64,000 bases of DNA from Myxococcus guangdongensis (lineage in GTDB: Bacteria; Myxococcota; Myxococcia; Myxococcales; Myxococcaceae), in contig NZ_JAJVKW010000007.1 in NCBI RefSeq assembly GCF_024198255.1, forward strand, positions 124,001-188,000, given 5' to 3'. Made by a program: the position numbers and the translations under genes. The notes under the pieces were generated by a model that saw only the letters and a program-made list of their open reading frames with translations, had not been told where the DNA came from and searched no databases. How positions within the stretch are numbered: position 1 is the first letter of the stretch; each line of letters starts with the position of its first letter. Below are positions 6,781-12,518 of the stretch, piece after piece.

Positions 6781-8499
6781 TCAGCCCCGGTCCTTGCGGA
6801 CGACGACCTTGCGGCCGCGAATCGTCGCCGCCTTCAGCGCGGCGATGACGCGGTTGGCCTCCGGCTCCGGCACCTCCACCAGCGAGAAGCCGTCGCCAAT
6901 CTGGATGGCGCCGATGTGCGACGAGTCCAGGCCCGCCTCGCCCGCGATGGCGCCCACCAGGTCCGCGGGGCGAATGCCGGCCTGACGTCCCGCGCCGATC
7001 CACAGGCGGGTGACATCCCAGGTCGGGGCGGCTCGACGAGGTCCCCCTCGCTCGGGACGGCCACCAGGACCGGAGCGCCCCGCGGGGGCACCGGGACGGC
7101 CCGGGCGCTCCTTGCGCTCCTCCCTCGGCGCGACGGCGGGGATGTCCTCCTCCTCCTTCGCGCGGCCCTCGTCCTGGGCGTCCTGGAGCAGCTTCACCGC
7201 GGCGGCGGCGATGTCGAGCGGCTCGAACTCGCTGGCCAGGTCCTCCACCAGCCCCCGGAACGAGTCCTGTCCCCCTGCCACCAGCGTCTCGCGCAGGGTG
7301 GCGCGCAGCAGCTCCTGCCGCTTGGCGCGCAGGTCCGCCACGGTGGGGACGGTGGCCACCTGGATGCGCTGGCCGGTCACCTTCTCGATGTTGCGCACGA
7401 GGCGGGCCTCGCGCGGCTCCACCAGGGTGATGGCCACGCCCTCACGGCCGGCGCGGCCGGTGCGGCCGATGCGGTGCACGTACGCCTCGGGGGCGTTGGG
7501 CACGTCGAAGTTCACCACGTGGGACAGGCGCGGGATGTCCAGGCCGCGCGCCGCCACGTCCGTGGCCACGAGCAGGTCCGTGCCGTGGGACTTGAGCTGC
7601 TTGATGACCCGGTCTCGCTGCTCCTGCGTCATGCCGCCGTGGAGCGCGTGCGCGCGCCAGCCCCGGCCGTTGAGCGACACGGTGAGGTCATCCACCTCCG
7701 TGCGCGTGCGGCAGAAGATGATGGCGGCGGTGGGGGACTCCACGTCGAGCAGGCGCCCCAGCGCGGCGATCTTGAACGCGCGCGGGACGATGTACGCCGT
7801 CTGACGGATGCGCGGCAGCTCGCCCGGCTCCACCTTCTCCTTGGCGATGCGCACGCGCACCGGCTGACGCAGGTGGCGCTCGGCGATGCTGGCGATGCGC
7901 GGCGGCAGGGTGGCGGAGAAGAGCGCCGTCTGGCGGTCCTCGGGCGTGCCGGAGAGGATGGCCTCGAGGTCATCGGCGAAGCCCATGTCGAGCATCTCGT
8001 CGGCCTCGTCGAGCACCACGGTGCGCACGTTGTCGAGCTGCAGCGTGCCCCGGCGCAGGTGGTCCAGCGCGCGGCCCGGGGTGGCGACGACGACGTCCAC
8101 GCCCCGCTTGAGCACGCGCAGCTGCTGGCCGATGACCTGCCCGCCGTAGAGGGGCAGCACGGTGGCGCCGAGCTTCTGGCCGTAGCGGTGGATGGCCTCG
8201 GAGACCTGCATGGCCAACTCGCGCGTGGGCACGAGCACCAGCGCGGAGGTGGCGTGGGCGCCGGCCTCCCCCGGGACCAGGTGGTGCAGCAGCGGGAGGG
8301 CGAAGGCCGCCGTCTTGCCGGTGCCAGTGGCGGCGATGCCCAGGAGGTCCTTGCCCGCGAGCAGCGGCGGCAGGGAGGCGTTCTGGATGGGCGTGGGCTC
8401 CTCGTAACCGAGGGCGGTGAGCGCCTCCACGAGCTGGGGCTTGAGGCCCAGGGATTCGAAGGTGGCGTCGGGGGGCGAGGACGGCGGTGCGGAAGTCAC
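6781..8499 (-). CDS. DEAD-box ATP-dependent RNA helicase with DbpA-type RNA-binding domain
   Basis: A 572-residue helicase. The GTG at 8499 is chosen because the Q-motif region (TFESLGLKP...PTPIQ) starts about 12 residues later; the longer frame adds a low-complexity stretch unlike the family. Motifs in order: Walker A ATGTGKT (57-63), PTRELA (91-96), TPGR, DEAD (164-167), SAT, and HIGRTGR in the second RecA domain. After a helical region and a Gly/Arg/Pro-rich linker, the last ~75 residues form a DbpA/CsdA-type RRM fold (VTRLWIGAGRQAGI...). That domain directs such helicases to structured RNA, typically 23S rRNA in ribosome assembly or cold-shock RNA. It lies 88 bp downstream of the Dbr1-like gene on the same strand, so the two may share a transcript. 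Confidence 0.95.
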   Translation of the reverse strand: MTSAPPSSPPDATFESLGLKPQLVEALTALGYEEPTPIQNASLPPLLAGKDLLGIAATGTGKTAAFALPLLHHLVPGEAGAHATSALVLVPTRELAMQVSEAIHRYGQKLGATVLPLYGGQVIGQQLRVLKRGVDVVVATPGRALDHLRRGTLQLDNVRTVVLDEADEMLDMGFADDLEAILSGTPEDRQTALFSATLPPRIASIAERHLRQPVRVRIAKEKVEPGELPRIRQTAYIVPRAFKIAALGRLLDVESPTAAIIFCRTRTEVDDLTVSLNGRGWRAHALHGGMTQEQRDRVIKQLKSHGTDLLVATDVAARGLDIPRLSHVVNFDVPNAPEAYVHRIGRTGRAGREGVAITLVEPREARLVRNIEKVTGQRIQVATVPTVADLRAKRQELLRATLRETLVAGGQDSFRGLVEDLASEFEPLDIAAAAVKLLQDAQDEGRAKEEEDIPAVAPREERKERPGRPGAPAGRSGPGGRPERGGPRRAAPTWDVTRLWIGAGRQAGIRPADLVGAIAGEAGLDSSHIGAIQIGDGFSLVEVPEPEANRVIAALKAATIRGRKVVVRKDRG

Positions 8500-8587
8500 G
8501 CGGGGCTTGTACCACCGGCTTCCTCCCTCGTGCCTCGAAGAATCGCCGTTCTGTCCCACATCTATCGCCCAGGCGTGCGTGTCGGCC

Positions 8588-9436
8588 TCAGCGGACAGGC
8601 AGTGTGCCCAGGTGGGTGACCTCCTGGAGGGCGCCCCGGGAGGACTGGAAGATGGCGAAGGCCTCCGCGCCCTGTTCGACACTCGCCAGACAGCAGACCG
8701 GGGTGGCGGCGCCGGAGGGCCACTTCAAGGCGCCGCGATAGCGTTTGTGCAGGTGGCCGCAGAGCACGAGCCGGGGCTGGAGCGCCTCGGCCACCAGTCG
8801 GGCGTACTCGTTGCCCACCGCGTCCGCATGAGGGCTGCGGCGCTGGTGCTGGAAGTCCTGGCGGTCCTCGTCGGCGACGAGGCCGGAGGGCCAGTCATGG
8901 ACGAGGAGGATGTCCGCCCGCGCGAGGCCCAGGGCCCGCTCGATGTCCTCCTCGTTGAAGCACGCATAGTCCTTGTTGGAGACGGTGCCGAGCAGGGACA
9001 GGGCGGGGTGGGGCTTCTGGAAGCCCGGGGCGTCGTGGATGCCGGAGAGGCCGGCGATGCGCAGCCCGCGGGTCTCCACGACGCCGACGCGGCCCAGGTA
9101 GTGGCAGTTCGCGGTGAGCAGGAAGCCCTCGGGGGCCGAGTCCAGGTAGCCGTGGGGCTCGTGGTTGCCGCCGATGAAGTACACGGGCCAGGGGAAGCGC
9201 CGGCGCTTCTGGTGGTAGTCCGCGAAGTCGCCCAGCTGCTTGTAGCGGGCGGGGGCGGCCATGGTCGCGAGGTCCGCCTCGTCGCGGTGGGGCTCGAAGT
9301 CACCGACCTGGAGGACGAAGGCCAGCTCCCGGTTCGCGCTCTTCGTCCAGGACTGGAGGATGGACACCATCCGGTCCATCCGGCCGTGCACGTCGCCCAC
9401 GGCGGCGAAGCAGAAAGTGTCGGGAGGCGTGGCCAT
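8588..9436 (-). CDS. Dbr1-like calcineurin-fold metallophosphoesterase
   Basis: A 282-residue metallophosphoesterase. The ATG at 9436 has GGAG seven bases upstream; the longer frame adds only five residues and has no ribosome site. Metal-binding motifs are complete: GDVHGR (D15, H17), VGDFE (D46), GGNHE (N91, H92), VHDWP (H180) and GHLH (H228, H230). The pattern GDF..R.EADL..MA.P..Y before FIGGNHE, then YLGRVGVV..RGLRI.G.SGI and DILLVHDWPSG, follows eukaryotic RNA lariat-debranching enzyme Dbr1 almost motif for motif and in register. One difference: Dbr1 has Cys where this protein has the first Asp (GDVHG), so a two-metal centre is expected here. Debranching of 2',5' linkages is inferred; a general phosphodiesterase role remains possible. 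Confidence 0.85.
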   Translation of the reverse strand: MATPPDTFCFAAVGDVHGRMDRMVSILQSWTKSANRELAFVLQVGDFEPHRDEADLATMAAPARYKQLGDFADYHQKRRRFPWPVYFIGGNHEPHGYLDSAPEGFLLTANCHYLGRVGVVETRGLRIAGLSGIHDAPGFQKPHPALSLLGTVSNKDYACFNEEDIERALGLARADILLVHDWPSGLVADEDRQDFQHQRRSPHADAVGNEYARLVAEALQPRLVLCGHLHKRYRGALKWPSGAATPVCCLASVEQGAEAFAIFQSSRGALQEVTHLGTLPVR

Positions 9437-9517
9437 GGGTGACTCCAGCATGGCGCATCCGCGCGCCGGGCGGCGCAGCGACGCGGTGGGCGTCCGGCGG
9501 CTGACCGGGCTCGCGCC

Positions 9518-12274
9518 TCAACCGACGAGCGAGGGCCAGTTGCGGCCGACCCAGGCGCGCTGCTCGACCTCGTCCCGCCACCGTGGGTCCTGCCGGTCGA
9601 TGCGGCGCGAGGTGGCGAAGAGGGCGTCGAGCGCCGCGAGCATCCGCTCGGTGAACGGCGTGTCCTCGACGACGAGCAGCGCCTCGCTCTCCCAGTACGC
9701 GGCGGTGACGTCCAGGTTGGCGCTGCCCACCGCGACGGCGCGGGTGTCGCACACCAGGACCTTCGCGTGGACGTGGGGGAAGAGGCGCTCCAGCTCCGGC
9801 TCCCAACCAGGCCGCGAGGGCAGCGCCAGCTCGTGGGCGATGCCTCCCGCGGCGATGACCGCGTCCAGGCGGCTGCGGACATAGCGGTCGGCCACCTCGC
9901 GAATCGCGCCTCCGGGGAAGTAGGTCCGCGCGTCGCCGTGGTGGGGCCGCACGCTGCCGAAGAGGACCTCCACGCGGACACCCCGCTGGAGGGCGGCGAT
10001 GAGCGCGTTCTGGAGCTCGAGCAGCAGGGGGAAGGTGTTCACCAGGACCAGGCGAGAGCGCGCATGGCGGATGAGCGCGAGCTGCGTGTCCAGGGTGTGC
10101 GTGTCCTTGAGTCCCTCGTGCAGGGCGATTCGGGCCGCCATCGTCCCCGCCGGCGCGGAGGGCGTCACGGTGAACGGCTCTCCTCCCGCGCGCGTCCACT
10201 CCGCGAGGAACGCGTGCTCCAGGTCGGTGACCAGCGGTCCTTCCAGTCGCGCGCCACAGTCGAGCCAGGGGATGTCGCGGTAATGGGTGTCGCGGCCGAG
10301 TGGCACCTCGTCGAAGCCCGTGTAGTACGGCGCGCCGAGATTCCGGCCCGAGACGAATGCGAGCGTGGAGTCGACGAGCGTGAGCTTGCGGTGGTTGCGC
10401 TGCTTGAGCTCGTAGAGGTTGGGGCCTCCGACGAGCGGAGCAATGGCGCGCACCTCGACGTTGGGGGGGCCGGAGAGCCCGACGAGGGCGGGGTTGAGCG
10501 CGCCGAAGGAGTCGTGTCCGCTGTAGAGCGCGTCGGCGAGGAAGCGCACGCGGACACCTCGGGTGGCGGCCCGCTTCAGCGCCTCGGTGATGCGGGCGGT
10601 GATGGGGTCGTCCTCGACGATGTAGCACTGCCAATGGACGGTGCTTCGCGCGGCGTCGATGGCGGCCAGGACGGATTCGCGGGCCTGGGCGTTGTCGAGC
10701 TCGAAGTCGATGTGATGGCCCTCGGTGCGCGGGCTGCATCCGGCGAGCGTCAGCTCCCGGGCCCAGGCGTCCTGCTCGGATGGGAGCGGGAGCGGCTCCA
10801 GGGGGGTGTTCCTGGGCAGGGCCTCGCACTCCTCGGGGCTGAGCGTGCGGAGGGCGGGATGGATGGGTTTGTAGGCATCGCGCGTGATGACCGCGGCGAT
10901 GGGCACGTGCGCGGCGGCGAGCCGGGTGGCGACGCGCAACAGACGCTGTCCATCGACCTGCCGGGGCACGTCATCCGCCCGGGCATCGTCGAGCCACGCG
11001 CTGGCGTCGAGCAGCAGGGGCCACGCGAGGTCGGGCAGGTGCTCACGCAGCCGCGCGCGCTGCTCGTCGAGCGAGTCGCTGTCTCGCATCCGCACGAAGC
11101 TCAGGTGGTACCGGTCCGCGGCGAGCTCGCGGACGGCCAGGAGCGTGTCCTCCTCGACGAGGCTGTCCACCAACAGCAGCGGCTTCTCCGGCGCGAGCAC
11201 ATGGCTGGGCACCAGTTCGCGCGAGGCGGAGGGGTCCGCGAAGGAGAAGGCCAGGGGATGCAGCCCGTGCAGGTGCCCGAGCCACGCGGCGTCGATGATG
11301 GCGGTGCCACCCTGGTGACGGACCTCGCCGAGCGCGGTGCCGTTCGCGAACACCGTCACGAGGCCCGGCTCCAGGAGGGTGACGCTGGACAGCAGCCCGA
11401 CGCGCTCGACAGCGAAGCGCGGGGACAGGCCGGGCGCCACGAGTGAATCGGAGACGGCGTGATGGTCCTCGAAGAGCGTCAGCCCTGTCTGGGTCCGTGG
11501 CAGGAGGAGGGTGGGGACCCGGGCCTCCTGGAGCGCACGGGCGCCCGTCAGCCCGACATACAGGGCCTCCAGGTCGGCGAGGGAGTCGGCGGGGACGACG
11601 AGCAGGCTCGCCCCGGAGCGCAGCGCGACGTCGTCGAAGGCCTCCGCGCGACTGCTGGCGGCGTTCCCGGTGAGCGACTCGACGGCCAGCGTCTGGGTGA
11701 TGCCCAGCGCTTTCGAGAGGGCCTGGAGCGCTCCGGTCTGCTCCGGCGCCAGGCCGGTGGTGAGCGCGATGAGCTCCGAGGGCTGCGCGCAGTGGGGCAG
11801 GAAGCTGGCCACGGCGCCGAGTCCCCGGCCGTCCGGTGCGATGGCCAGGGCCATGCGGAATGGCTCGGTGCTGACCCTGTCCGGCGCGCGTCCCAGGGAG
11901 AGCACGGGCAGGTGCTCGCGGAGGGCGAGCAGCAACATCGCGCCCACCCGGGCCCGGGGCGACGTGTCCAGGAGGGGGCCCAGCACGACGAGCTCCGCGC
12001 CGTGTCGCCGCGAGACCTGGACCAGGTCGCCGATGTCGAGGTGCGTCTCCAACGCGCCGGTGACCTGGATGGCGGGGCTCCAGTCCTGGAGGGTGTGCCG
12101 GAGCCGGTCCAGCACGGTGAGACTGGTGGGCGGCGGCGCCTCCAGCTCACTGCGCTCGGGGACCAGGCCGTACAGGTAGACGGCTTCGGGCTCGGAGGTC
12201 AGCCGTCGTACGGCGTGAAGGACGTGCTCGGACTCGGAGCCTGCATCGAAGACGACCACCAGACGTCGGAACAT
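9518..12274 (-). CDS. universal-stress-like / phospholipase D (cardiolipin synthase-like) fusion
   Basis: A 918-residue fusion. The ATG at 12274 (MFRRLVVVFDAGSE) starts right at a universal-stress-protein-like fold; the 49 extra residues of the longer frame are low complexity. The first ~300 residues look like two USP-like alpha/beta domains (for example GAELVVLGPLLDTSPRARVG). A less clear middle part follows. Residues ~560-900 are a phospholipase D superfamily unit with two HxK(x4)D motifs: HRKLTLVD near residue 626 and HAKVLVCD near residue 836, each followed by GRN or GSAN. Two HKD motifs form one active site that transfers or hydrolyses phosphatidyl groups, as in cardiolipin synthase. No membrane anchor is obvious. 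Pairing stress-sensor domains with a lipid-active enzyme is unusual. Confidence 0.82.
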   Translation of the reverse strand: MFRRLVVVFDAGSESEHVLHAVRRLTSEPEAVYLYGLVPERSELEAPPPTSLTVLDRLRHTLQDWSPAIQVTGALETHLDIGDLVQVSRRHGAELVVLGPLLDTSPRARVGAMLLLALREHLPVLSLGRAPDRVSTEPFRMALAIAPDGRGLGAVASFLPHCAQPSELIALTTGLAPEQTGALQALSKALGITQTLAVESLTGNAASSRAEAFDDVALRSGASLLVVPADSLADLEALYVGLTGARALQEARVPTLLLPRTQTGLTLFEDHHAVSDSLVAPGLSPRFAVERVGLLSSVTLLEPGLVTVFANGTALGEVRHQGGTAIIDAAWLGHLHGLHPLAFSFADPSASRELVPSHVLAPEKPLLLVDSLVEEDTLLAVRELAADRYHLSFVRMRDSDSLDEQRARLREHLPDLAWPLLLDASAWLDDARADDVPRQVDGQRLLRVATRLAAAHVPIAAVITRDAYKPIHPALRTLSPEECEALPRNTPLEPLPLPSEQDAWARELTLAGCSPRTEGHHIDFELDNAQARESVLAAIDAARSTVHWQCYIVEDDPITARITEALKRAATRGVRVRFLADALYSGHDSFGALNPALVGLSGPPNVEVRAIAPLVGGPNLYELKQRNHRKLTLVDSTLAFVSGRNLGAPYYTGFDEVPLGRDTHYRDIPWLDCGARLEGPLVTDLEHAFLAEWTRAGGEPFTVTPSAPAGTMAARIALHEGLKDTHTLDTQLALIRHARSRLVLVNTFPLLLELQNALIAALQRGVRVEVLFGSVRPHHGDARTYFPGGAIREVADRYVRSRLDAVIAAGGIAHELALPSRPGWEPELERLFPHVHAKVLVCDTRAVAVGSANLDVTAAYWESEALLVVEDTPFTERMLAALDALFATSRRIDRQDPRWRDEVEQRAWVGRNWPSLVG

Positions 12275-12518
12275 GGTGCGCGCGATTCCCGGGACGGCCC
12301 CTTCACCGACGCTCGGTTCCGGGGCGACAAGGGTCCCATCATGCCGGGAACCGGCCCGGTTGGCGTCACCGGAACGAGGGGGCCGGGATTCCGGGACCCA
12401 CCGTGGCCGTGTCCGCCCCATGCCTTGCCCGAGTCCCGCCGCTCCGCGAAATTGCAGGCGGAATGAAAGTGGTTGCCTGAGTCAACCAGTCTGTCTTTGC
12501 CGTGCTAGGCTTCAGGGT

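Follow-up and report, generated by a model that had tools for sequence, protein, structure and literature searches.

According to a published description, no enzyme other than Dbr1 is known to hydrolyse the 2',5' bonds of lariats selectively (PMC10470207). In the Entamoeba histolytica enzyme (EhDbr1), H16 and Y64 sandwich the branch-point adenine, Gln47 was placed by the authors at the branch-guanine edge, and function in yeast is lost when Cys14 is replaced by Ala or Ser, when the loop is removed, or when the C-terminal domain is removed (PMC4176325). The spliceosome-associated proteins Drn1/CWF19L1 are described as non-catalytic homologues of Dbr1 (PMC10470207). Branched molecules are also known from bacteria: in retron msDNA the branch nucleotide is a guanosine, and Mx162 msDNA in its mature form still has its RNA branch (PMC6868368).

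Work on Dbr1 has treated it as a eukaryotic enzyme. A family of prokaryotic proteins that share its catalytic domain allows its origin to be tested, and small single-domain proteins offer a way to find out what is added by the C-terminal domain and the Cys. A literature search turned up no report of a Dbr1 in bacteria (subscription papers were thinly covered, and an earlier mention is possible), and the Dbr1 homology of the family discussed here is apparently so far undescribed. The gene lies in a 64,000-nucleotide stretch of the genome of Myxococcus guangdongensis, referred to below as the window.

A Dbr1-Like Gene in the Window

The gene (8588..9436, minus strand) encodes a metallophosphoesterase of 282 amino acids, assigned to the bacterial branch of the Dbr1 clan and here called A-type. 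Its start is the ATG at 9436, with a possible upstream ATG at 9451, and its stop is at 8588. The third-codon-position GC content is 0.95 and dN/dS against close orthologues of the same genus is approximately 0.27-0.36 (by a simple Nei-Gojobori count, dS being rough at high GC); this GC bias, together with a dN well below dS, indicates that the ORF is a real gene. The product matches PF00149 at 37.2 bits (cut-off 21.5) with all metal ligands present, which makes it a member of the superfamily. This general calcineurin-like phosphoesterase domain was the only one found by Pfam, without a second domain; NCBIfam gave zero matches for the protein, and an Rfam scan of the window gave none.

Searched with phmmer against 177,635 distinct PDB sequences, the window protein matched EhDbr1 at E 3.1e-33, and the remaining matches at E<=10 were to Drn1/CWF19L1 only (E 3.7e-5 and 0.01). 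A profile of 45 prokaryotic relatives extended this separation, matching Dbr1 at E 3e-57 and Drn1/CWF19L1 at 1e-18, with the next metallophosphoesterase only at E 0.11. The source genome (11.2 Mb) contains 41 PF00149 matches; EhDbr1, searched against the whole genome, found just two genes, that of the window (E 4.5e-33) and a paralogue, B (E 2.9e-20). The window protein and EhDbr1 are approximately 32% identical over 225 residues. An AlphaFold2 model of the window protein (pLDDT 94.5, pTM 0.93) was closest to the EhDbr1 entries, all of which ranked at the top (Z approximately 32, rmsd 2.3, 257 residues, EhDbr1 5-266); CWF19L1 followed at Z 23.8 and ordinary metallophosphoesterases at 18.5 and lower.

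Judged from sequence and model, homology of the window protein to Dbr1 is near certain, and its similarity to Dbr1 in both sequence and fold stands well above that to other metallophosphoesterases, which places it in the Dbr1 clan. The PDB search, the reverse genome search, the fold, and the profile rule out a generic metallophosphoesterase with motifs shared by chance. An earlier reading of the DNA, made from the sequence only, had proposed a Dbr1 homologue distinct from generic bacterial phosphodiesterases, and sequence, profile, fold, and the phylogenetic tree described below all bear this out. The Dbr1 motifs that it quoted are all present in the ORF, and the metal ligands are, as it claimed, nearly identical in numbering, offset by 0-2 residues from those of Entamoeba Dbr1.

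Active Site and Domain Structure

Residues were compared using the EhDbr1 map of PMC4176325, in an alignment whose yeast Dbr1 row is unverified. The ligand and catalytic positions pair as follows (window protein/EhDbr1): D15/C14, H17/H16, D46/D45, N91/N90, H92/H91, H180/H180, H228/H230, and H230/H232. Counting from the ATG at 9436, D15, the first metal ligand, lies within GDVHG at approximately 9387..9392 (D15 codon 9392-9394), and the GGNHEP segment, with N91 as a metal ligand and H92 as the catalytic acid, lies at 9155..9172, approximate to 1-2 codons (both on the minus strand). Counterparts of R50 and W182 are also kept, and the Leu of GHLH occupies the M231 site.

Both residues of the branch-base sandwich are retained, as H17 and Y65. 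The Y65 codon (9242..9244, minus strand, computed from the same ATG) is the counterpart of EhDbr1 Y64. Tyr occupies this position in 22 of 25 bacterial A-type rows, 8 of 10 actinobacterial rows, and all five archaeal/Lentisphaera-type rows; paralogue B has Arg there, and the C-type rows have His. At the Gln47 site, all 25 A-type rows and all 10 actinobacterial rows have Glu (E48 in the window protein).

Residues approximately 131-160 (8957..9046, minus strand) match the lariat-recognition loop in position and length, the distance from GNHE to HDWP being about 90 residues in both proteins, and the segment (cf. EhDbr1 130-158) falls within the model-aligned range; the loop contacts K134, F136, F155, and H156 and the hub R158, compared by sequence only, are not conserved, nor are K59 and D205. 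K155 of the window protein is nearly invariant and may stand in for R158. The C-terminal domain (EhDbr1 262-354) is absent, as the window protein stops at the end of the catalytic domain. With Cys14 and the C-terminal domain absent, the window protein belongs to the Dbr1 clan and is not Dbr1 sensu stricto. The Dbr1-type debranching enzyme of the sequence-only reading is at most putative, since the protein lacks two features that are each essential in Entamoeba Dbr1.

At the Cys14 position, all aligned prokaryotic rows that extend over it have Asp, which supports the earlier suggestion that Asp is the older state of the first metal ligand. The catalytic Cys of Dbr1 probably arose in eukaryotes, by alteration of a two-metal site of the Asp type.

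Family and Distribution

Of the 27 genomes of the genus, 23 carry an A-type gene, as do seven further Myxococcaceae genomes. The B-type paralogue, 36% identical, is present in nearly all core Myxococcaceae genera and has GGNNE in place of GGNHE, so that its catalytic His is Asn; the copy at G000:C5:386100-386846 (L002, L041) is strongly conserved, and its sequence suggests an activity that is possibly altered or lost. A more distant C-type, with FIKGNHE, is found elsewhere in the phylum.

A wider genome scan yielded 77 loci, whose products are at most 38% identical to EhDbr1, spanning cyanobacteria, acidobacteria, gammaproteobacteria, planctomycetes, Chloroflexota, actinobacteria, and two archaeal metagenome-assembled genomes (MAGs). 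Occurrence is sparse: an A-type query found the gene in 2/386 cyanobacterial genomes, and the archaeal protein of locus L070, used as query in its own phylum, in 5/371. The family is an accessory one that carries the Dbr1 catalytic domain, and it is broader than could be known from the window.

The proteins of two small-genome archaea, L070 (7989-8732; DPANN) and L144, have GDFQ and are very Dbr1-like, with Asp in motif I. That of L070, which matches EhDbr1 at E 3.7e-33, also has PPKY and FIGGNHES; archaeal ribosomal protein genes, identified by eye, adjoin its gene on the contig, which counts against eukaryotic contamination. In genome G200 two clan genes lie side by side. Short metallophosphoesterases with GNNE on haloarchaeal plasmids (L032 and L033) belong to the same clan. 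A pattern scan with a single protein found no viral relatives, and a second scan found one locus.

Gene Neighborhood

Approximately 75 bp downstream of the gene, on the same strand, lies a DeaD/DbpA-type DEAD-box RNA helicase (6781..8514, minus strand; Pfam DEAD, Helicase_C, and DbpA), and upstream is a phospholipase D-like protein of 967 amino acids (9518..12421, minus strand; Pfam PLDc_2). The latter has C-terminal phospholipase D domains and a first part of about 600 amino acids without a Pfam match, and is kept in close relatives. The order helicase/Dbr1-like gene/phospholipase D is preserved at five other loci in close relatives; it is confined to one Myxococcaceae group, in which the surrounding genes are preserved too, and a functional link with either neighbor is at most possible. 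No conserved neighbor was found across phyla.

The best RNA-related clue is a single case in Pleionea sp. CnH1-48 (Gammaproteobacteria), in which an RNA ligase, an HD-like/kinase gene, a second RNA ligase, and the Dbr1-like gene follow one another on one strand (L053:5259-8804). The kinase part of the middle gene matches bacterial Pnkp, an end-healing enzyme, and the operon-like run looks like an RNA repair cassette. In a Lentisphaerae MAG (L087:2806-6900), an AAA_2 protein, a truncated RNA ligase start, and another metallophosphoesterase accompany the Dbr1-like gene; the ligase remnant, recognised by eye, lies upstream of that gene and is of the same family as the Pleionea ligase.

A distant clan gene on an IMG/VR contig (L127:1282-10626) directly follows PglX-, PglZ-, and BrxL-like genes and is itself followed by PRiA4_ORF3-like and Fic genes, in a BREX-type defence island. 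Its product has a weak match to PDC-S10, a candidate defence family.

Predicted Activity

We propose, with confidence that is about evenly divided, that the window protein is a single-domain, probably two-metal phosphodiesterase of the calcineurin type, on the bacterial branch of the Dbr1 clan, that cleaves an unusual RNA or RNA-DNA linkage. Two metals would be held by D15, H17, D46, N91, H180, H228, and H230, a metal-activated water would attack the phosphodiester, and H92 would protonate the leaving oxygen, with the base beside the scissile bond held in the H17/Y65 pocket as in Dbr1. The linkage would most likely be one such as a 2',5' branch, and the protein would serve as a clean-up or repair enzyme encoded by an accessory gene. 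From the comparisons above, RNA is a likely substrate and 2',5' debranching a plausible activity; by analogy with EhDbr1, E48 in place of Gln47 could favor a guanine branch. Against branch cleavage stand the missing Cys14, C-terminal domain, loop contacts, and D205, and also the fact that the RNA-ligase operon is one case plus the Lentisphaerae remnant, most loci having no conserved neighbor. Were bacterial 2',5'-branch cleavage true, it would imply an unrecognised bacterial metabolism of branched RNA or RNA-DNA.

The same losses fit a general or signalling phosphodiesterase of the same Dbr1-derived fold whose substrate would not be a nucleic-acid branch; it might, for example, act on cyclic nucleotides, on 2',5'-linked ones, or on some other small phosphodiester. 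We regard this as a possible, if lesser, explanation. The RNA-binding loop contacts and the C-terminal domain are gone, the alpha metal site has the canonical Asp of other phosphodiesterases, some carriers have no reverse transcriptase at all, and a clan member is found in the BREX-type island noted above (PglX, PglZ, BrxL), with its weak PDC-S10 match. This explanation does not readily account for the ligase/kinase operon of Pleionea, or for the stacking Tyr and the block EADL..P.KY..LGDF, which are kept in bacteria, archaea, and eukaryotes and lost in the B and C types; their retention points to a base of the same type beside the scissile bond.

msDNA and Group II Introns as Candidate Substrates

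The sequence-only reading had named msDNA and group II intron lariats as substrates of a working debranching enzyme. Reverse transcriptases are indeed present in 30/30 Myxococcaceae genomes that carry the gene and in 18 of 21 non-actinobacterial bacterial carriers, and E48, invariant in the bacterial rows, replaces Gln47, the proposed contact of a branch guanine; retrons branch at guanosine. Group II reverse transcriptases that score over the curated cut-off are present in 9/30 carriers versus 18/66 non-carriers among Myxococcaceae, and in 9/30 versus 9/26 within the four genera that contain carriers; the source genome has none over that cut-off. Group II introns are therefore rejected as the partner, the gene showing no association with their reverse transcriptases.

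For msDNA, reverse transcriptases are nearly ubiquitous in the same genera with or without the Dbr1-like gene, and in 15 of the 21 actinobacterial carriers none was detected (6/21 have a match; several of these genomes are drafts). Against a cyanobacterial background of 116/194 (60%, genomes of all sizes), their presence in 8/8 large-genome carriers is uninformative. Co-occurrence with reverse transcriptases, common as a background in the same genera and contradicted by the actinobacteria, was rejected as support. Furthermore, mature Mx162 msDNA retains its branch and a M. xanthus strain carries the Dbr1-like gene, which indicates that msDNA is not debranched wholesale. The earlier proposal has gained little from these comparisons: a working debranching enzyme for msDNA, group II lariats, or both is improbable, and either as the specific substrate is unlikely on present evidence.

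Phylogeny and Origin

When six generic metallophosphoesterases encoded by the source genome served as outgroup, a branch with support of 97/72 divided them from the Dbr1-like clan. The tree was the check named in advance for the homology claim, and the window protein groups with Dbr1, apart from the generic enzymes. Within the clan it falls in a clade of bacterial A-type and actinobacterial members (87/80, rising to 99/98 without very long outgroups). EhDbr1, the one verified sequence on the eukaryotic side, groups with the archaeal L070 and L144 proteins at 98/83 in the first tree, whose yeast Dbr1 row is unverified, and at 99/87 in a repeat tree without that row. A sister relationship of EhDbr1 to the archaeal proteins, favored by these bootstrap values, is tentative, as placing EhDbr1 with the bacterial clade is not rejected by an AU test (p 0.54).

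That bacteria recently acquired a eukaryotic Dbr1 gene by horizontal transfer, as the high similarity to a eukaryotic protein and the patchy distribution (e.g., in cyanobacteria) might suggest, is very improbable, given that the prokaryotic members all have Asp and none Cys, that the C-terminal domain is found nowhere among them, and that the deeply diverse bacterial members, from many phyla, form a clade of their own (99/98, with one verified eukaryotic sequence). More doubtful than the proposed linkage-cleaving activity is a scenario in which the prokaryotic proteins would be 2',5'-branch phosphodiesterases independent of spliceosomal introns, E48 in the bacterial members would favor a guanosine branch, as in retron msDNA, over an adenosine one, and Dbr1 would be a descendant that gained a C-terminal domain and changed Asp to Cys.

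Comparison with Known Systems

The generic metallophosphoesterases Rv0805, LpxH, YfcE-like proteins, and Mre11/SbcD share with the window protein the superfamily fold and the metal motifs, including Asp in motif I; unlike members of the clan, generic bacterial enzymes reach at best Z 18.5 to the model and give no significant profile match. PHROG 1649 (E 1.6e-15) and PADLOC PDC-S10 (2e-6) are detectable relatives, probably from the C-type or viral part of the clan, and carry no functional assignment; the related rows, those of the C-type and of L127, have another residue in place of the stacking Tyr. Drn1/CWF19L1, described as non-catalytic, provides the second-best match by both profile and fold; in the window protein the active site is complete. 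The closest described system is EhDbr1 (PDB 4PEF to 5UKI). The window protein has Asp for its Cys14 and Glu for its Gln47, lacks its C-terminal domain, and does not conserve its loop RNA contacts, R158 hub, K59, or D205; it shares the catalytic fold (Z 32), six of the seven metal ligands, the catalytic His, the stacking Tyr and His, the HDWP and GH[LM]H motifs, and a loop of equal length.
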